A stretch of DNA of 64,000 nucleotides, taken from positions 1,374,085-1,438,084 of the forward strand of contig NZ_FPAS01000001.1 of the NCBI RefSeq assembly GCF_900116425.1, written 5' to 3'. This DNA comes from Lishizhenia tianjinensis. GTDB taxonomy: Bacteria; Bacteroidota; Bacteroidia; Flavobacteriales_D; Crocinitomicaceae. Both the position numbers and the translations under genes were made by a program. Positions 23,933 through 47,824 of the stretch are shown here, piece by piece; within the stretch, counting starts at the first letter, position 1; the number at the start of each line of letters is the position of its first letter. The notes beneath the pieces are model-generated. The model searched no databases. It was given only the letters and a program-made list of their open reading frames with translations, and was not told the DNA's origin.

Positions 23933-24895
23933 TTACTGAATAACTAAACGTTGTGTTGCAAGTGCACCTTCATGACTAACTTTCACAAAGTATACACCCG
24001 CCTCTAAATCAGCAACGTCTATAATTGTATTCACTTGAGCGGTTTTAACCAATGCTCCTTGCGTATTGTAAATCGCAACATCACCCGCCTCCGCTTTAAT
24101 GTTCAATTGCGTTGTAGCCGGGTTAGGGTACATATCAAATGCAACAGTAGCTACATCATTTACACCCAAGTTAGATTCAATGTATTCCAAGTTGTCTATT
24201 GCAAAATATGCTGGTGTGTTCATTCCCCATTGTCCAACATCAGAAGATTGGAAACCGAAGGTTAAGGCCATAGAGCCCGACAAAGCACTTAAATCAAAAG
24301 TTGTCCATTCGTCCAAAATGTAATCTTGTGCATCTGTTCCTCTAAAATCTGCCAAGTAAACATCTACAGAATCCACGATATCAAAATTCGCGTCCCATCC
24401 GTAAATACGAACAAAGAAAAAGTCTTCACCATTTGTACCATCATCTACTCCATCTGCATTTGTCGTAGAACCAAATTGTTTGGCAAACTGATCCCCATCA
24501 CGCATAGAAATTCCAGCGTAAGTATTGTTTACAAAATCAGCCCCTACTAAAATGCGTTCTTCTTCGAACCAAAGTGTGTCTGTGTTGTTAAACACCGCGT
24601 ACTGCTCAGAACCATTTGCACCTTCACCTGCAAACGCAGAATAAGGGTTTGTATAACCTGCCGTTGTTACATCCGTCATGTTAGAATACACAAAACCATG
24701 CGCGGTTCCCCAGCTTCCAAGGTTAGCTCCAAAAGTCACCCCATTCTCAGTAAACGGAGCATAGCTATCTGTGAAAACGTAAAATGTGTCTGCTGTAGGA
24801 AGCGTTAAACTTTCAAAATCTACAGTTACTTGATTTTGTGCTTGTGTAAATCCTGCTCCAAGCACAAGAGCAGCCATTAAGTAGAATTTTTTCAT
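23933..24895 (-). CDS. DUF4465 protein with T9SS tail, BtuH-like cobalamin binder candidate
   Basis: 320 residues: signal peptide (LMAALVLGAGFTQAQ), a DUF4465-type beta-sandwich (about 20-235, with SYAPFTENGVTFGANLGSWG, GWGTAHGFVYSN-like and GWDANFDIVDSVDVYLADF segments) and a T9SS sorting domain (FDMYPNPATTQLNIKAE to QRLVIQ). To my knowledge the Bacteroides surface B12-binding lipoprotein BtuH belongs to DUF4465; here the protein has no lipobox and is instead a T9SS substrate. It is the first gene after the cobalamin riboswitch and precedes btuB, so its expression should fall when B12 is plentiful. Confidence 0.8.
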   Translation of the reverse strand: MKKFYLMAALVLGAGFTQAQNQVTVDFESLTLPTADTFYVFTDSYAPFTENGVTFGANLGSWGTAHGFVYSNMTDVTTAGYTNPYSAFAGEGANGSEQYAVFNNTDTLWFEEERILVGADFVNNTYAGISMRDGDQFAKQFGSTTNADGVDDGTNGEDFFFVRIYGWDANFDIVDSVDVYLADFRGTDAQDYILDEWTTFDLSALSGSMALTFGFQSSDVGQWGMNTPAYFAIDNLEYIESNLGVNDVATVAFDMYPNPATTQLNIKAEAGDVAIYNTQGALVKTAQVNTIIDVADLEAGVYFVKVSHEGALATQRLVIQ

Positions 24896-25029
24896 TCTTG
24901 AAAAATTAAATATTACTAAAATGACTTTGGATTAAAGGGTGTGCACGCCCAAAGAAAATAAAAACGTATCGCCGAAAAGCGGTAAGAATTTAAATCCAAC
25001 TTTAATCTGAAGTCTTCATTACTAAACAT

Positions 25030-25205
25030 TTGGGCGAGTATTCTGACTTACTTCCTAATGTTTCCCCTTCCCATTGGCGTTGAGTTTGCCCAACAGTGGT
25101 TTTGGAAACATCTACTAAAGCTTACAGCTGCAGATACAGTTCCTGATTTGCACAGGATTCCAATTTAAAACCTTCACTCCGAAGAGATTCAGTTACCAAA
25201 ATGCG
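25030..25205 (-). ncRNA. Cobalamin (B12) riboswitch upstream of the DUF4465-btuB operon
   Basis: Read on the minus strand, the conserved elements of the cobalamin aptamer appear in order: GGTAACTG near 25190, GTGCAAATCAGGAACTGT (about 25155-25138), CTGCAGCTGTAAGC, CCACTGTTGGG (about 25099-25089), ATGGGAAGGGG (about 25074-25064), and the B12-box counterpart AAGTCAGAATACTCGCCC (25049-25032; classical form AGCCAGGAGACCTGCC). Downstream, TTGGATT (minus, 24999-24993) can pair with AATCCAA (minus, 24933-24927), and a GGGCGTGCACACCC hairpin lies before the start codon; these may form the expression platform that blocks initiation when B12 is bound. Confidence 0.92.
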
Positions 25206-25208
25206 TGG

Positions 25209-25216
25209 CAAATGTA
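25209..25216 (-). promoter_or_regulatory. -7 promoter element of the riboswitch transcript
   Basis: On the minus strand TACATTTG (exact TAnnTTTG) ends at 25209, so the transcript should begin near 25203, just at the 5' edge of the aptamer. A TATG replaces the -33 TTTG near the 19-base spacing. Confidence 0.5.
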
Positions 25217-25249
25217 GTTTAAAATTTAAAGAGCGCATAAGATAAGTGT

Positions 25250-25460
25250 ATAAATTTCAACGATGGTCTTTCAGGGGCTGTTTCCCCTCCTACAACTCGG
25301 GGTCGCGTTTTCCCTTATAGTCCTCACACTTTCAAGGGTTTAAAAGCAGTGTAGTTAAAGCTTCACAAAGGTCGCTTTCCCTACCCTGTTTTGCACACCC
25401 CAAAAGTCCTCCGGGCTGTCAGTTCAACCGCTAACAGAAGGCAGTCTTGAGTGTGAGAAT
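25250..25460 (-). ncRNA. Candidate structured RNA of unknown class between the two btu operons
   Basis: No coding frame explains this block. It is about 50% G+C over 25261-25440 by my count, against 25% in 25211-25250. On the minus strand it can form CACACTC (25455-25449)/GGGTGTG (25400-25394) and CTGTTAG (25437-25431)/CTGACAG (25422-25416); both stems contain a wobble pair valid only on the minus strand. It can also form AAAGC/GCTTT, an AGGGG/CCCCT hairpin (25288-25273), and an H-type pseudoknot (ACACT, CCCTT, AGTGT, AAGGG in order, 25352-25310). It lacks the conserved boxes of RNase P, tmRNA and the cobalamin aptamer. The riboswitch transcript seems to start downstream of it. Strand, ends and function are inference. 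Confidence 0.4.
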
Positions 25461-25552
25461 AACAGTAGAGAGTGCGAATAGTGAGTATGGAAAAGGAGTA
25501 TTACTTTCGTAAGTTTTGAATCAACTAAAGAGAGTCTAACACAATATTTTTC

Positions 25553-25560
25553 CATATTTG
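25553..25560 (+). promoter_or_regulatory. Probable -7 element of btuFCD
   Basis: CATATTTG differs from TAnnTTTG in the first base and ends 16 bases before the btuF ATG. No cobalamin aptamer core is visible on the plus strand before btuF, so btuFCD may not share the riboswitch control of btuB. Confidence 0.3.
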
Positions 25561-25576
25561 CATAAAATAATTCGCG

Positions 25577-26701
25577 ATGAAAAGGCTCATTTTTCTTCTT
25601 CCTTTATTTCTTTTAACAGGTCTATTTTCTTGTTCAACAGAAAGTAAAAAAGCAACAGAAGACACTGAAATAAAAGCAGATACCCTTCAGATTTCTTTTG
25701 CAAAAGGTTTCAAAATTCTACAAGCGAAAGATGCCTACATCGTTCAAATTTTGAATCCTGAAAATCGCCGAGAAATAGAACAAGAATTCTATTTGTATAC
25801 CAAAAATGCGCGCATACAATCAAAAAAAGATGCCATCAATATTCAAATTCCTATACAAAAAAACATAGCACTTTCGAGTACGCATATAGGTATGATCAAT
25901 GCTTTGGGTAGAAGTCAAACCATAGTCGGCGTTTCTGGCGGACCATACCTATGTGATGAAAACTTAAAAACACGACTAGAACAAGGTAAATTAAAAAGTG
26001 TTCAAGACATCGCTCAAGCCAATTTTGAAGAGTATTTAGGACTTCATCCCGATGTTATTTTTTCAAGTTCTTTCACCAAAGACGCTCCTATTTTAGAAAA
26101 ACTCAAACAAGCTAACATACCCGTTTTCAACAATTACGATTGGCGCGAAACCACTCCTCTAGGAAGGGCAGAATGGATAAAAGTATTAGGTATTTTCTTC
26201 GATGAATATGAAAAAGCAAATGCCTTTTTTCTGCAAGAAGTAAAAGATTACACTGCATTAAAAGAGGCTGCCACTAAGGTTTATTTCCACCCTACTGTTT
26301 TGTCGGGTTACTACTACGGAGGCGTATTTAATGCTCCTGCTGGAGAGAGCTACCAAGCCCAATTGTACAAAGATGCAGGAGCTCACTATGTTTTTGCCCA
26401 ACAAGCTGGAACGGGAAGTTTAGATTTGAGCATGGAAGAAGTAGTTACGCAATTTAGAGATGTAGATTACTTACTCAATGTGTCGGGAAACACCAAAGCT
26501 GAAATCGAAAAAGCCTTTGAAAAATACAGTCTATTCGAAGCCTTCCAAGGTGATGGTTTATACAATTACACCGCCAACAACAATTGTTTCTGGGAGAATG
26601 CAGCGCATCAACCTCATTTGTTATTGGCCGATTACATTGCTATTTTTCACCCAGAAATTTTGAGTAGAGACAGTTTGAACTTTTACAAAAACATACAGTA
26701 A
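25577..26701 (+). CDS. btuF: Cobalamin ABC transporter substrate-binding lipoprotein BtuF
   Basis: 374 residues with a lipobox (LLTGLFSCS, lipidated Cys19). The rest is a class III periplasmic binding fold (Peripla_BP_2): first lobe with IALSSTHIGMINALGRSQTI and LGLHPDVIFSSSF, a long linking helix, second lobe with VYFHPTVLSGYYYGGVFNAP and AGAHYVFAQQAG. Same-fold proteins bind haem, siderophores or cobalamin; cobalamin is favoured because the divergent operon carries a B12 riboswitch and btuB. The lipid anchor puts it on the periplasmic side of the inner or outer membrane. Its TAA stop shares a base with the apparent start of btuC. Confidence 0.85.
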   Translation: MKRLIFLLPLFLLTGLFSCSTESKKATEDTEIKADTLQISFAKGFKILQAKDAYIVQILNPENRREIEQEFYLYTKNARIQSKKDAINIQIPIQKNIALSSTHIGMINALGRSQTIVGVSGGPYLCDENLKTRLEQGKLKSVQDIAQANFEEYLGLHPDVIFSSSFTKDAPILEKLKQANIPVFNNYDWRETTPLGRAEWIKVLGIFFDEYEKANAFFLQEVKDYTALKEAATKVYFHPTVLSGYYYGGVFNAPAGESYQAQLYKDAGAHYVFAQQAGTGSLDLSMEEVVTQFRDVDYLLNVSGNTKAEIEKAFEKYSLFEAFQGDGLYNYTANNNCFWENAAHQPHLLLADYIAIFHPEILSRDSLNFYKNIQ

Positions 26702-27696: not shown

Positions 27697-28397
27697 TGTT
27701 TAAATTAAAAAATGTTGACATAGGGTATAAAAAGAAGTTGGTTCACATCACGGATTTACATGTGGAAAAAGGTAAACTTTACGCATTGCTCGGTAAAAAC
27801 GGAAGCGGAAAAACCACTTTTCTACAAACTCTGATGGGAAATTTAGCGCCCCTGAAAGGCGAATATTTAGTGGACGGAAAAGAAATTCAAGCCTTGAGTA
27901 AACGCGAAAAAATGCGTTATTTGAGTTATGTCCCCTCTAAGTTTTACGGTGTGGAACACTTGTCGGTACGAGAACTCATAGGTATGGGGCGTGCACCCTT
28001 CACCAATGTTTTGGGTAGAATTTCTCAACGCGACAATGATAAGATAGACGAGATTCTAGCCCTTCTAAAAATTGAACATTTGCAGTGTTTATCTACCCAG
28101 AAAATATCGGATGGAGAGCGACAAATAGCCATGATAGGAAAAGCTTTGGCCCAGGAAGCTCGAGCAATAATTTTAGATGAACCTACTGCCTTTTTAGACT
28201 ATTCTAACCGACTCAAAACCATACAAATTCTAAAAGAAGTGGTAGCAAAAAAGGGCGTTACCGTCTTATTCTCTACCCACAACTTGGATTTATCACTCAA
28301 CTATGCCGACAATATTATCAGCATCAATAAGGAAAAGGAATTTGAAGTTTTCGAGGCTGGTATTGCCAAGGAATTGATAATAGAGAAGGTATATTAA
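27696..28397 (+). CDS. btuD: Cobalamin ABC transporter ATP-binding protein BtuD
   Basis: About 233 residues from the ATG at 27696, which overlaps the btuC stop. Walker A GKNGSGKTT, ABC signature region KISDGERQIAMIGKAL (SDGER in place of LSGGE), Walker B AIILDEPTAFLD, and the switch His in LFSTHNLDLS. Cytoplasmic ATPase subunit that energises BtuC. An in-frame ATG 24 bases upstream also exists but lies within btuC. Convergent with the RES toxin gene, with which it overlaps by 4 bases. Confidence 0.9.
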   Translation: MFKLKNVDIGYKKKLVHITDLHVEKGKLYALLGKNGSGKTTFLQTLMGNLAPLKGEYLVDGKEIQALSKREKMRYLSYVPSKFYGVEHLSVRELIGMGRAPFTNVLGRISQRDNDKIDEILALLKIEHLQCLSTQKISDGERQIAMIGKALAQEARAIILDEPTAFLDYSNRLKTIQILKEVVAKKGVTVLFSTHNLDLSLNYADNIISINKEKEFEVFEAGIAKELIIEKVY

Positions 28398-28852
28398 AAC
28401 ATCAATCTATCATCTACAGGAAAAGTCTTGAAGGATGTTACTTCTACCCTTTTAAAATCAGGATGAAAGGGATTCAATAAATAATTAAACTCATTTTCTA
28501 CTACGGCAGAAGGCACCTTGCAAACCGCATACTTTTGAGCACGAACAAAATCATCACCTAAAAATTGCGTGCTGGTTACATGCGGAAAAACATTCCACTT
28601 TCCATCTAAAGCATCCACATGTATACTTGTTGTTTTAAGATCATCTGGAATTTCTATTTCCACCATCACATAATCGGAGGGTAAATTTTCTAACCTGATG
28701 TGCACCAAAACTTCTAACAACGCCAAAGCTCTACTTTCTGCAGCATACACCATAAAAACACCTTTAGAATTCCATCTATTTCCATACAAACTTGCTCCCA
28801 ATCCTGAGAGGTCTCTGGCGTATTTTCTTCGGGTTAAGCGGTAGACTTTCAT
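28394..28852 (-). CDS. RES-domain toxin of a type II toxin-antitoxin pair
   Basis: 152 residues. RES-family toxins (for example those that degrade NAD+) are named for conserved Arg, Glu and Ser residues, and these can be placed: Arg in VYRLTRRKYA and the GLGASLYGNRWNSKG loop, Glu in YAAESRALALLEVLVH, Ser in KVPSAVVENEFNYLLNP. The start codon overlaps the antitoxin stop (TAATG), the usual toxin-second arrangement for RES-Xre systems. NAD+ depletion is the known activity of characterised members; activity here is inferred. It sits tail-to-tail with btuD. Confidence 0.88.
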   Translation of the reverse strand: MKVYRLTRRKYARDLSGLGASLYGNRWNSKGVFMVYAAESRALALLEVLVHIRLENLPSDYVMVEIEIPDDLKTTSIHVDALDGKWNVFPHVTSTQFLGDDFVRAQKYAVCKVPSAVVENEFNYLLNPFHPDFKRVEVTSFKTFPVDDRLMF

Positions 28853-29331
28853 TAGGCAAATAAACCGTGATCAATTTTGGTGAGCTCAGCTAATAGTAAA
28901 TCTTTGCCATAAGAGGTTTTGAGCAATTCTTTGGGAGTTAAATTACCCAAACTAAAGGCCTTGCTCGCCAACCAAGCATTTACTTTCTCTTTGGATTCTA
29001 AGACCTCGTAGGCTCTATAGATAACCTCTGCGAGTTCAATGAGTTTTTCAGAATGTATGGGCTTGAATTTAAAATTCTCCTCCTTGCGGTGACGTTGCAA
29101 AGATTTGGTGGATAAACCTAAATACTGCGCCCATTCTTCTTCTGTGAAGGGGGCCAAAGCCTTAATTTCTTGATAAAACTCAAAACTTACACCACTGGCT
29201 ATAGTATTTACAACCGTAAGTTTATCGTTTAAAAAGGAAGTAAAACTTGGTGTAGACCTTTGATAGGTTACCTGAAAATCTTTGAGGACTTGCCCTATAC
29301 TTGTATTGATTTGTTTATACTCCTTCACCAT
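28852..29331 (-). CDS. Antitoxin of the RES pair (Xre/MbcA/ParS-like toxin-binding domain)
   Basis: 159 residues. The middle (PFTEEEWAQYLGLSTKSLQR) is a helix-turn-helix of the Xre-like antitoxin type, and the C-terminal half (ELAEVIYRAYEVLESKEKVNAWL, then LGNLTPKELLKTSYG) is the MbcA/ParS/Xre toxin-binding (DUF2384-type) domain. It binds and neutralises the RES toxin and normally represses its own promoter; inverted repeats that flank a -7 element just upstream (29332-29375) fit this. Translationally coupled to the toxin gene. Confidence 0.88.
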   Translation of the reverse strand: MVKEYKQINTSIGQVLKDFQVTYQRSTPSFTSFLNDKLTVVNTIASGVSFEFYQEIKALAPFTEEEWAQYLGLSTKSLQRHRKEENFKFKPIHSEKLIELAEVIYRAYEVLESKEKVNAWLASKAFSLGNLTPKELLKTSYGKDLLLAELTKIDHGLFA

Positions 29332-30326: not shown

Positions 30327-30890
30327 ATGAAAACAGCAATCAGCCTTTTGGCAATGTGTTTCCTATTTACTACGTATGCGCAAGAAGAAGAAGAAAAAAA
30401 ATGGCACTATGGTTTTGAAGTTGGTGCAAACTATAGCAATGTAATTGGTCGAGATAAATCTAATGGGCCTGGTTACGAACTAGGAATTACCACCCAACGA
30501 AAAATTGGTGAACAACTTTTTTTCAACCCAGCCATCTCCTTCGGATATTCCAGTGCTCGTTTTCAGGATAACCCCATACTCGATTATTACCTTAACTTCC
30601 AGCCTAAGTTGAATTACTTTTTAAAAGAAGATGCCAACAGTGTGTTTTTTAGTTTTGGTCCTGCACTCCAACATAGATTAAGCGAAGTAAAAATAGCTTC
30701 GGATTATACCAATCGAAACAATCTATCGCTGAACTTTGGGGTAGGCTTTTTGAACAAACTACAGTACTTCGATTTACAAACAGAGCTCAGGTATAGCTTT
30801 GGTTTAACAGAAAAATTAAACCCTCCTATGCTCAATCCTGACTATCAGATTTACTACCACAGTTTAGGATTATACATACAATTTTTATAG
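30327..30890 (+). CDS. Outer-membrane beta-barrel protein
   Basis: 187 residues: signal peptide (LLAMCFLFTTYAQ), a short Glu-rich mature start, then alternating strands rich in Gly and aromatics (WHYGFEVGANYSNVIG, LFFNPAISFGYSS, YLNFQPKLNYFL, VFFSFGPAL, LNFGVGFLNKL, YHSLGLYIQFL). This matches the OMP_b-brl type of small 8-strand outer-membrane barrels. No specific function can be read from sequence. The 159-base gap to menD holds two hairpins (30949-30981 and 31025-31043) without T runs. Confidence 0.75.
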   Translation: MKTAISLLAMCFLFTTYAQEEEEKKWHYGFEVGANYSNVIGRDKSNGPGYELGITTQRKIGEQLFFNPAISFGYSSARFQDNPILDYYLNFQPKLNYFLKEDANSVFFSFGPALQHRLSEVKIASDYTNRNNLSLNFGVGFLNKLQYFDLQTELRYSFGLTEKLNPPMLNPDYQIYYHSLGLYIQFL

Positions 30891-31049
30891 GCTTAGCGAT
30901 AGGAAGGGCAGCGCCCCGAAATAGAGTTTTAGTAAGCCACGAGTTACAATTACGACCTCTGGAAGTGATTGTAACTTGAAATGCGACTTAAACTATCTTT
31001 TGGGGACTATACTGGATAGCGCGGTTCCGAGTCCAACTCGGAAAGGCCC

Positions 31050-32735
31050 CTACTTCACTTTTACAAAATCAAAGTAAGCTTTCAATACCTTATCATTTTC
31101 TTCGTAAGGTGTAAAGATTTCCATGATTGCAGGACGTTCTAACTTGGCATAGAAATCTTCCATTTGTCCGTCTATGGCCTGTAAATTATCCGCTTTGAAA
31201 TAATTCACCTCATAGGCTTTACACAAATGCTCTGCTTTGGTTTGATGACGCGTGGTAAAGAATTCATCCAAAGCCTGGGTTGTACCGGGTCCAGGTATGA
31301 TTTTGAAGATACCACCCCCTTCATTGTTGATCAAGAAAATTCTCAGATTACTCGGCAAAACTTTGTTCCACAAGGCATTAGAATCGTAGAAGAAAGAAAT
31401 ATCACCCGTTATGAGCGTATGCAACTTATCTGGTCGCGCCAAAGCAGCACCAACGGCCGTACTTGTAGATCCATCTATCCCCGAAGTTCCGCGGTTACAG
31501 TAGCGCTCTATGCTTGGAATAGCATCGAACAACTGGGCGTAACGAATAACAGATGAATTCGAAAAATGTAATACTGAATTTTCGGGAATATAATCTAAAA
31601 GCATCTCGAATACAGACATATCTGCATAAGGTGCATCGTAAAAATAGGCATCGTGTTGGGCTTGAATTTGCAAATCCAACTGCTTCCATTTCCCTCCGTA
31701 ATTATTACTATTTCTCGACCATTTTGTCAAAGGCATTTCCTCAAAAAACTGTTCCGCTTTCATGGGGAAAGATGCCGTTAACTTTTGGTAGGTATCCATG
31801 AAGTTGAAATCCTCACTCACCTTCCAATGGTGTTGTATTTTATTGCGACGGATAAAAGCCTTGATGCGTTTAGACACCACCGCTCCACCTATAGTAATCA
31901 ATAAATCGGGTGCAAAATCTTCTTCTTGTTCAGCGCTTATACTGTTCAAAGTTCTATCTATGCACTGAATAAAACTGCGGTGGGTACAATTGCTGGTATT
32001 TTCTACCAAAACTACCGTAGAGGTATCTGTTGCCAAATCTACCAACTGGGCTTGTACCTTTGGGTTTACGGGCATTTGTCCTACGATAATCATACGCTTC
32101 TGCGTCTTATCCCAAATGTTTTGAAAGTGCTCTAATTGATGCGCGTCAAAAGTCATTTTAGGAGCCACAAGGTTTAGGTGTTTTTGCGGCGTGTAAGCTA
32201 CTTCGGAGCTATCGTATAAAGGTTCTGTGAAAGGGAAATTGATATGCACAGGTCCTTTCGCTGCTTGTGTTGCCACTTGGAAAGCATGATCTGTTTTTCT
32301 ACATAATTCCCACACCTCATTATCATCTCGTAAATGTTCTTTCAATTCCGTTTCAAAACGCACATGATTGGCCAAAGCATTGGTTTGACGTATGGTTTGA
32401 CCATCTCCTTGATCTACCCACATGTTGGGTCTATCGGCAGAAATCACCACCAAAGGAATACTTCTGTAAAAAGCCTCAGAAACCGCTGGCGCATAATTTA
32501 ACAAGGCAGAACCTGAAGTACAAAGTACGGCTACAGGTTCTTGTAATTGTTCAGCCATTCCTAGCGCAACAAAGGCTGCACTTCTTTCATCAGGAATGGA
32601 GATACACTTGAAAAAATCATCGCTTGAAAAGGCAATGGTAAGGGGAGCATTTCTAGAACCTGGAGAAATGACTACATTTCTCAAATTGTTCAACTTACAT
32701 TGTTCTACGAAATACTTTACACCTGTTTTACTCAT
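31050..32735 (-). CDS. menD: 2-succinyl-5-enolpyruvyl-6-hydroxy-3-cyclohexene-1-carboxylate synthase MenD
   Basis: 561 residues, thiamine-diphosphate enzyme of menaquinone synthesis (isochorismate plus 2-oxoglutarate to SEPHCHC). Signatures: N-terminal VISPGSRNAPLTIAF, LCTSGSALLNYAPAVSEA with the SxSA-type substrate loop, ISADRPNMWVDQGDGQTIRQ, and the ThDP/Mg motif GDISFFYDSNALWN. Length and order are normal. It is the last gene of a likely operon with the upstream substrate-binding protein (26-base gap) and ABC exporter (5-base gap). No other men genes are in the window. Confidence 0.95.
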   Translation of the reverse strand: MSKTGVKYFVEQCKLNNLRNVVISPGSRNAPLTIAFSSDDFFKCISIPDERSAAFVALGMAEQLQEPVAVLCTSGSALLNYAPAVSEAFYRSIPLVVISADRPNMWVDQGDGQTIRQTNALANHVRFETELKEHLRDDNEVWELCRKTDHAFQVATQAAKGPVHINFPFTEPLYDSSEVAYTPQKHLNLVAPKMTFDAHQLEHFQNIWDKTQKRMIIVGQMPVNPKVQAQLVDLATDTSTVVLVENTSNCTHRSFIQCIDRTLNSISAEQEEDFAPDLLITIGGAVVSKRIKAFIRRNKIQHHWKVSEDFNFMDTYQKLTASFPMKAEQFFEEMPLTKWSRNSNNYGGKWKQLDLQIQAQHDAYFYDAPYADMSVFEMLLDYIPENSVLHFSNSSVIRYAQLFDAIPSIERYCNRGTSGIDGSTSTAVGAALARPDKLHTLITGDISFFYDSNALWNKVLPSNLRIFLINNEGGGIFKIIPGPGTTQALDEFFTTRHQTKAEHLCKAYEVNYFKADNLQAIDGQMEDFYAKLERPAIMEIFTPYEENDKVLKAYFDFVKVK

Positions 32736-46792: not shown

Positions 46793-47650
46793 ATGAAAAG
46801 ACTACATCAACACATCCTCTCTGCACTTTATTTGCAAGAAGGTCATTCTAAAACAAAGGCCTTCTTAAGCGAACTCACCGTTTTCACTTATAAAAACATG
46901 TTGAGTTGCATATTCCCAGCCTATATATTTCTGGTCTTGGCACTCTCCAATATGCTCGGGTTAAACTTCATGCACAGGTACGATTTTCTTTTTGTCGCCT
47001 GCGTTTTAGCGCAAGTCGCACTATTACTCACGGGCATAGAAAGCAAACGAGAAGTATTGGTCATCATGGGCTTTCACTTCTTGGGTATCATCATGGAAGT
47101 ACACAAAGTAAATGTGGGCTCTTGGAGCTATCCCGAAGATGCCCTATTCAAATTTTGGGGCGTCCCTTTGTACAGCGGTTTTATGTATTCTAGCGTGGGA
47201 AGTTACGTGTGTAGAGCCTGGGATAATTTCTCGCTAAAAATTACAGATTGGCCTAAAAACAGATACGCTATTCCGGTTGGTTTTGCCATCTACCTTAATT
47301 TTTTCACCAATGCTTTTATACAAGATTTAAGGTGGTACATCGTGCTTTTGCTCTTGATCGTTTTCAGAAAAACTAAAGTTCATTTCACTACCAATGGTCG
47401 GCAGCGCTACATGCCCTTACTGCTTTCTTTTGTGCTCATCGGTTTCTTTTTGTGGTTGGCAGAAAACATCGCTACCTACCTCGGGGCATGGCAATATACC
47501 TATCAACACAAGGGCTGGCAAATGGTAGATTTGGGCAAACTAAGCTCGTGGAGTTTGTTGGTGATTGTAAGCATTATCATTGTGGTGCAATTGAAACGTT
47601 TCTTTAGTAAGGATGTACATAAAGAAGGTGAGTTTTTGGAGCATCATTAG
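46793..47650 (+). CDS. DUF817-family integral membrane protein
   Basis: 285 residues with about seven to eight membrane helices. Family-typical segments are FLSELTVFTYKNMLSCIFPA, HFLGIIMEVHKVNVGSWSYP, YSSVGSYVCRAWDNFSLKI and WLAENIATYLGAWQY. DUF817 proteins are conserved but not functionally characterised; the conserved Glu/His residues inside membrane segments (GIIMEVHK, WLAENIAT) suggest a membrane enzyme. Monocistronic and divergent from the M61 gene. Confidence 0.85.
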   Translation: MKRLHQHILSALYLQEGHSKTKAFLSELTVFTYKNMLSCIFPAYIFLVLALSNMLGLNFMHRYDFLFVACVLAQVALLLTGIESKREVLVIMGFHFLGIIMEVHKVNVGSWSYPEDALFKFWGVPLYSGFMYSSVGSYVCRAWDNFSLKITDWPKNRYAIPVGFAIYLNFFTNAFIQDLRWYIVLLLLIVFRKTKVHFTTNGRQRYMPLLLSFVLIGFFLWLAENIATYLGAWQYTYQHKGWQMVDLGKLSSWSLLVIVSIIIVVQLKRFFSKDVHKEGEFLEHH

Positions 47651-47710
47651 GCATCATTTTCTCCGCGAAGCTCCAAAAACCAGGTCGCCCCTACAAGTTG
47701 TTTGGCACAA

Positions 47711-47770
47711 AAAAAGGAAGCTATTTACTTACAAGTAGCTTCTAAAGTCGCTCTGGTAAGTATAGCTTCC
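47711..47770 (-). terminator. Terminator of the lipoprotein gene at 47825
   Basis: Long hairpin: GGAAGCTATTTACTTAC (47716-47732) against GTAAGTATAGCTTCC (47756-47770). On the minus strand it is followed by seven T. Confidence 0.65.
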
Positions 47771-47824
47771 TAATTTTCTGCGGCAACAAGCTTTTCAGTT
47801 TGCCCCTTACTGATGTGTCAAATC

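Follow-up and report, generated by a model that had tools for sequence, protein, structure and literature searches.

Between a cobalamin riboswitch and a btuF-like gene, the genome of Lishizhenia tianjinensis carries a G+C-rich block, and the question raised by the locus is whether the block constitutes a structured RNA and, if so, of which kind. Within the window, that is, the whole stretch of 64,000 nucleotides analysed, the G+C content is 37.5%, and it is 28-34% in the immediate flanks of the block. Over 25250-25460 it amounts to 47.4%, a value attained by only 0.6% of 211-nt windows, and over the element delimited below (25274-25439) to 50%. The block is free of coding sequence and is framed as follows:

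23933-24895, minus strand: DUF4465/secretion-tail gene, on the riboswitch side of the block
25016-25215, minus strand: cobalamin riboswitch aptamer (RF00174, 77.1 bits), a neighbour separate from the element
start at 25577: Peripla_BP_2 (btuF-like) gene, on the other side of the block

Further along, at 28394-29331 on the minus strand and directly after the btu ABC transporter genes, a RES-domain protein is encoded together with an antitoxin of the Xre/MbcA/ParS type, likely a toxin-antitoxin pair.

An earlier, sequence-only reading had described the block as non-coding, rich in G+C amid A+T-rich DNA, situated outside the cobalamin aptamer, structured like an RNA on the minus strand and unlike the common housekeeping RNAs (RNase P, tmRNA, SRP). 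All of this has been borne out, the structure by covariation across copies and not by the block's own fold energy. A search of 25150-25600 against Rfam matched no family, even at E<=10, and the thermodynamic fold of the block alone proved ordinary, with z of -1.2 on each of the two strands. Judged by these two results alone, the block could have been dismissed.

A dispersed repeat family and its relation to Flavo-1

Access to the family was provided by weak BLAST matches of the block within its own genome that had a motif in common. When up to 3 mismatches were allowed, GATAGCAGYGGCAGCCCGGANG gave 13 matches as compared to 0 for the reversed control, and the copies so found exhibit the common layout CTTAGSGATAGCAGYGGCAGCCCGG - variable - GCGACTTTAGAAGC - variable - GGACTATARCGGATAGCSCG, in which the variable parts pair mutually. 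BLAST searches of 59 relatives with the block returned short matches only, because sequence conservation is lacking in the stems; plasmid and phage collections searched with the block gave zero matches. A covariance model (R1) was built from ten other copies of the same genome, with the window copy left out. It matches the window copy on the minus strand at 25297-25439 with 60.2 bits (E=1.5e-15). At E<1e-3 its matches across the genome number at least 97, the window copy and at least 96 more. Almost all are intergenic, the few ORF overlaps involving only short, weakly scored predicted ORFs. The window contains a second copy and a probable third:

30888-31045, plus strand: second copy, filling a convergent gap (R1 43.2 bits, E=1e-10 over 30888-31036)
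47650-47800, minus strand: probable third copy, highly diverged (R1 14.1 bits, E=0.019 over 47701-47754, a weak match)

The genes around the second copy are found at 30327-30890 (plus) and, menD-like, at 31050-32735 (minus). In the third, the apical arm and an intact P4 hairpin AGAGCGACTTTAGAAGCT (47754-47737) with pairing flanks are recognisable, the core barely so. Near-identical copies were seen at contig ends (L013, L054, L055, L056 and L137), one of them upstream of 16S rRNA, and look like part of a duplicated rRNA operon neighbourhood.

The family to which these copies lead is Flavo-1 RNA (RF01705; Weinberg et al. 2010, PMC2864571). The Rfam model finds a single copy in this genome at E<=0.01, so that Flavo-1 is far commoner here than Rfam detects. 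RF01705 aligns full length to other copies of the genome, with scores (31.2, 28.1, 25.3 and 23.5 bits, and 35.5 bits for L035) below the Rfam gathering cut-off of 42 bits; the window copy fails the cut-off as well and lies below the Rfam reporting range. In the genus designated g47, RF01705 matches 20 of 20 R1-selected loci tested, five of them at >=42 bits, and R1 recovers loci of relatives that are above the RF01705 cut-off (e.g., G005:C16, G014:C11, G048, G022:C44, G010:C9, G045:C56). The likeness extends to the details of the core helix, in register from ccG/Cgg through two pairs, a G-N-A/G-N-A loop, two further pairs and a second 3x3 loop to AauC/GauU with its non-standard pair. The window copy presents GCG/CGC, UU/AA, the GAA/GGA loop, CU/AG and AGCCC/GGACU with a C.A pair, the last being present in 72 of 93 copies. 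Like Flavo-1, the element is intergenic, devoid of coding potential and found in Bacteroidota: named public records having both the exact motif and an R1 match belong to Flavobacterium and to Bacteroidetes/Bacteroidia MAGs, and two non-Bacteroidota records with the exact motif lack an R1 match.

The block is almost certainly a divergent, enlarged copy of Flavo-1, with a structure fuller than that in Rfam. The 76-position model covers the central helix only. Absent from it are the outer helix P0, the side hairpin P5, which is optional, and the apical arm of ~90 nt together with the conserved AGCGAC...GAAGCU hairpin at its end. Among the earlier ideas, that of a divergent housekeeping RNA came nearest, the block being a divergent member of an orphan family. 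A high-scoring known Rfam family, which the same reading had named as grounds for abandoning its view, is reached only indirectly, since Rfam itself does not score the window copy.

Fold, strand and persistence at orthologous sites

The functional unit extends on the minus strand from 25439 to 25274, slightly shorter at both sides than the 25250-25460 first delimited. Its parts, all on the minus strand, are these:

25274-25439: whole element, outer helix to conserved 3' CC (R1 match over 25297-25439; P0' and 3' CC placed by comparing 71 copies)
25433-25437: P0 outer helix, 5' side CTGTT, pairing with 25278-25282
25278-25282: P0 outer helix, 3' side AACAG; the conserved CC comes next (at +1 and +2 in 69/71 and 67/71 copies)
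25413-25431: P1 core helix, 5' side: GCG, UU, (GAA), CU, (GAC), AG, (C.A), CC; Flavo-1 core, from covariation
25305-25323: P1 core helix, 3' side: GG, (A), CU, (AUA), AG, (GGA), AA, A, CGC; from covariation
25328-25407: variable apical arm, with P2 ACUUU/AAAGU, P2b GGGU/ACCC, and P3 AAAACAG../..CUG-C-UUUU and GUAG/CUAC
25357-25378: P4 terminal hairpin AAAGC-GACC..GUGAA-GCUUU, with conserved GAC...GAA loop edges (P4 cells paired 96.6% in 98 copies)
25284-25302: P5 side hairpin CCCC...GGGG, placed between P1 and P0 so as to make a three-way junction; in some copies only, from sequence comparison

The window copy accordingly pairs CTGTT/AACAG, GCG/CGC, UU/AA, CU/AG, ACUUU/AAAGU, GGGU/ACCC, AAAA/UUUU, CAG/CUG, GUAG/CUAC, AAAGC/GCUUU and CCCC/GGGG. 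The AA partner of the P1 UU is at 25310-25309, and the UU/AA and CU/AG pairs are compensatory relative to UA/UA and AU/AU in other copies. The consensus fold of the window copy (-38.2) differs from its minimum-energy fold (-52.2). The H-type pseudoknot proposed earlier is present to the extent that ACACT, CCCTT, AGTGT and AAGGG do occur in the order given; as a conserved fold it was rejected, for across copies these segments belong to other helices, namely P3, P2b, P2 and P1c. Adjoining the element at 25441-25495 (minus) is a dispersed pyrimidine-rich word, CTCAATACTC..ACTCACACTC..ACTG, that recurs at L002, L003, L006, L009 and L010; it immediately precedes some Flavo-1 copies and occurs, too, at sites without a visible copy.

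Covariation supports the fold throughout. For 11 copies, 94.5% of the cells of the named structure are paired and 41 are changed on both sides, as compared to 11.5 in shuffled and at most 13 in slid controls. Among 98 distinct copies, 90.7% of the cells are paired, 497 are changed on both sides in compensatory fashion (138 shuffled, <=103 slid) and the covariation is 0.604 (0.185 shuffled, <=0.100 slid), while the g47 alignment has 261 such cells (76.5 shuffled, <=61 slid); the large alignments were fitted to the R1 structure and are hence biased towards the R1 fold. Alignment A4, by contrast, was made from sequence alone, two P5 hairpins having been cut out. The two sides of P0 are complementary at 5 of 5 positions in 71 of 88 copies, as compared to a mean of 11.9 (maximum 19) with reshuffled partners. 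Not counting the conserved C.A pair, the core helices have 38 G-U cells and 6 A-C cells. The apical arm, which has no common sequence in 90 copies, folds with a mean z of -4.3 on the element strand as compared to -2.9 on the opposite one, the element strand giving the more stable arm in 85 of the 90 (p=5.5e-15). The excess of G-U over A-C, together with the stability of the apical arm, indicates that it is the element strand whose fold is maintained. This strand specificity is read most simply as RNA, and the asymmetry of G-U over A-C could also be produced by a single DNA strand when folded. Selection on the fold is nearly certain for the family, and very likely for the window copy itself.

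The genus g47 allows the element to be followed at single sites. Its 60 loci reduce to 40 independent sites, and in 30 cross-species pairs of loci both flanking genes are orthologous, the orientation of the element being the same in 29. The element can be aligned where the neighbouring non-coding DNA no longer can. Upstream of miaA, in 16 species, the long form is present in 11, a short apical hairpin in two, a relic in one and no element in two; at the M23/alaS site, five of 16 genomes have the element. One orthologous site, compared in ten species, has 13 paired columns with at least two Watson-Crick types, G-U 22 times versus A-C once, and an alignment energy of -38.0 versus -26.5 for the complement. 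The copies in g47 stay at the same site across species and undergo compensatory changes within it, which sets the element apart from a decaying repeat. A short hairpin replaces the long arm in L325 and L328. In two g47 species (L318:1272-1454 and L299:2575-2736) an otherwise conserved copy has an extra insertion in the P4 loop; the apical loop thus tolerates insertions.

Genomic context and rival readings

The genome of the window copy has elements in 40 convergent, 22 tandem sense, 18 tandem antisense and 13 divergent contexts. Convergent gaps are preferred over divergent ones (40 vs 13, p=0.0003), a comparison used in place of a Fisher test for convergent enrichment, which is biased because the gap adjoining a convergent gap cannot itself be convergent; sense and antisense are even. 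The convergent preference is absent from g47 (5 vs 9 divergent), so that a simple 3'-end role is not general, and g47 sites exhibit no sense bias (9 sense vs 14 antisense). An intrinsic terminator accompanies 40 of 76 convergent genes beside an element and 19 of 28 others; being about as frequent beside elements, terminators are not replaced by the element. That the element should itself be an intrinsic terminator was rejected, given U-rich sequence before and A-rich sequence after it (the wrong order) and terminators as common elsewhere. A replication-strand bias was not apparent per contig (~53 vs 43), and a local GC-skew correlation (54 vs 26), rejected likewise, looks gene-driven when taken per contig.

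The rival that survives best regards the element as non-autonomous mobile DNA, the folded single DNA strand being the substrate of a transposase or recombinase and the fold being kept for movement (cf. REP/RAYT, IS200/IS605, integron attC). Consistent with it are the intergenic dispersal of ~100 copies over both strands, the fixed ends of these copies (conserved 3' CC), the variable presence between species at the M23/alaS site, the lack of common sites between distant genera in the sample and the report that many copies are untranscribed in F. psychrophilum (PMC9723704). Against it, Y1_Tnp (PF01797), present in 39 of 59 relatives, has zero matches in the own genome, for which reason the RAYT/IS200 version was rejected. 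The copies, moreover, are highly diverged, with near-identical ones at contig ends only; those at one site have, unlike dead insertions, undergone compensatory change across deep divergence; and P0 at the tips varies freely yet stays paired, unlike terminal inverted repeats. We consider mobile DNA unlikely, if still deserving of serious attention.

Independent small RNA genes acting in trans appear improbable to a higher degree. The Rfam label of Flavo-1 ('Gene; sRNA'), the RNA-strand-specific fold with compensatory evolution at single sites and the absence of sense/antisense bias relative to neighbouring tandem genes would suit them, but a promoter is hard to accommodate. No promoter-like motif lies upstream of the copies, the Flavobacteria-type -7 box TAnnTTTG preceding 1 of 71 as compared to 2.1 expected (not enriched), and many copies leave no promoter room outside coding sequence, starting as they do within a few bases of a stop codon or 6 nt away from a divergent gene's start codon. 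In F. psychrophilum, Flavo-1 hits were reported to coincide with transcribed regions, in sense or antisense, or, in many cases, with none (PMC9723704); the untranscribed hits count against the trans reading and sit badly with any RNA role, cis or trans.

A regulatory RNA specific to B12, envisaged earlier as a new riboswitch or a trans-acting RNA of the btu operons, has in its favour the position beside riboswitch and btuF and nothing else, and is hardly credible. The same element occurs at at least 96 other sites, by unrelated genes and, between tandem genes, in sense about as often as antisense; it lacks a riboswitch family match and a consistent 5' leader position before one gene class; it lies upstream of the riboswitch aptamer; and zero elements were found within ~1.5 kb of the btuF-homologue loci of 29 relatives, including G011, in which the same divergent riboswitch/btuF layout leaves ~71 nt between and the element is absent. 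A functionless chance structure in a G+C-rich spacer, in keeping with the unexceptional fold energy, is practically eliminated by the match to an independent model and by covariation far above the shuffled and slid controls.

Proposed role and comparison with known systems

Based on the collective evidence, the block is best explained as an enlarged Flavo-1 copy acting in cis as a folded RNA, an explanation that is on balance the probable one when identity and mechanism are graded together; the cis-acting mechanism taken alone is put forward tentatively. On one strand, the ~100 dispersed intergenic copies fold into a long hairpin with interruptions, which is closed by the outer helix and may bear a side hairpin at its base, and each copy seems to keep its fold through compensatory changes, wherever located. 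Having no recognisable promoter of its own, the element would act within any transcript crossing it, be this a sense transcript or read-through. A protein or processing enzyme may dock on the regular G-N-A/G-N-A internal loops and on the constant terminal hairpin and, by analogy with the REP/BIME hairpins of E. coli, would set transcript ends or stability locally. Nothing ties the element specifically to vitamin B12. Since the copies of distant genera occupy different sites, the element must once have spread; dispersal would date from long ago, recent spread not being seen in the own genome.

Widespread among Bacteroidota, the structured RNA family Flavo-1 has remained an orphan as to function in those papers of the searched library that name it. 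Our results might mean, speculatively, that it is not a family of sRNA genes but a genome-wide class of orientation-free structured elements, ~100 per genome, each with its fold kept in place by compensatory selection across species. Bacteroidota would then possess, in this dispersed architecture of cis-acting RNA (or single-strand DNA), a new functional class that has a putative partner protein dedicated to it. The element offers a test set in its defined copies and defined strand, orthologous sites with and without it, and constant putative docking features.

Among known systems, the cobalamin riboswitch RF00174 is adjacent and on the same strand, and is a separate, structurally unrelated feature. 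Integron attC sites are strand-asymmetric imperfect hairpins with a variable apical part and conserved basal pairing. The Flavo-1 copies have these three properties too and differ in being dispersed singly, without a cassette array; an attC R-box pattern was not recognised by eye in the element. With the REP/BIME palindromes of enterobacteria and other phyla (PMC3733652, PMC12306157) the element has in common that it is high-copy, intergenic, hairpin-forming, orientation-free and often located between convergent genes. REPs, however, are sequence-conserved units of 20-40 bp tied to Y1 transposases (PMC3733652, PMC12306157), whereas the Flavo-1 element resides in a genome without Y1_Tnp and is a strand-asymmetric unit of 70-170 nt, conserved in its fold more than in its sequence.
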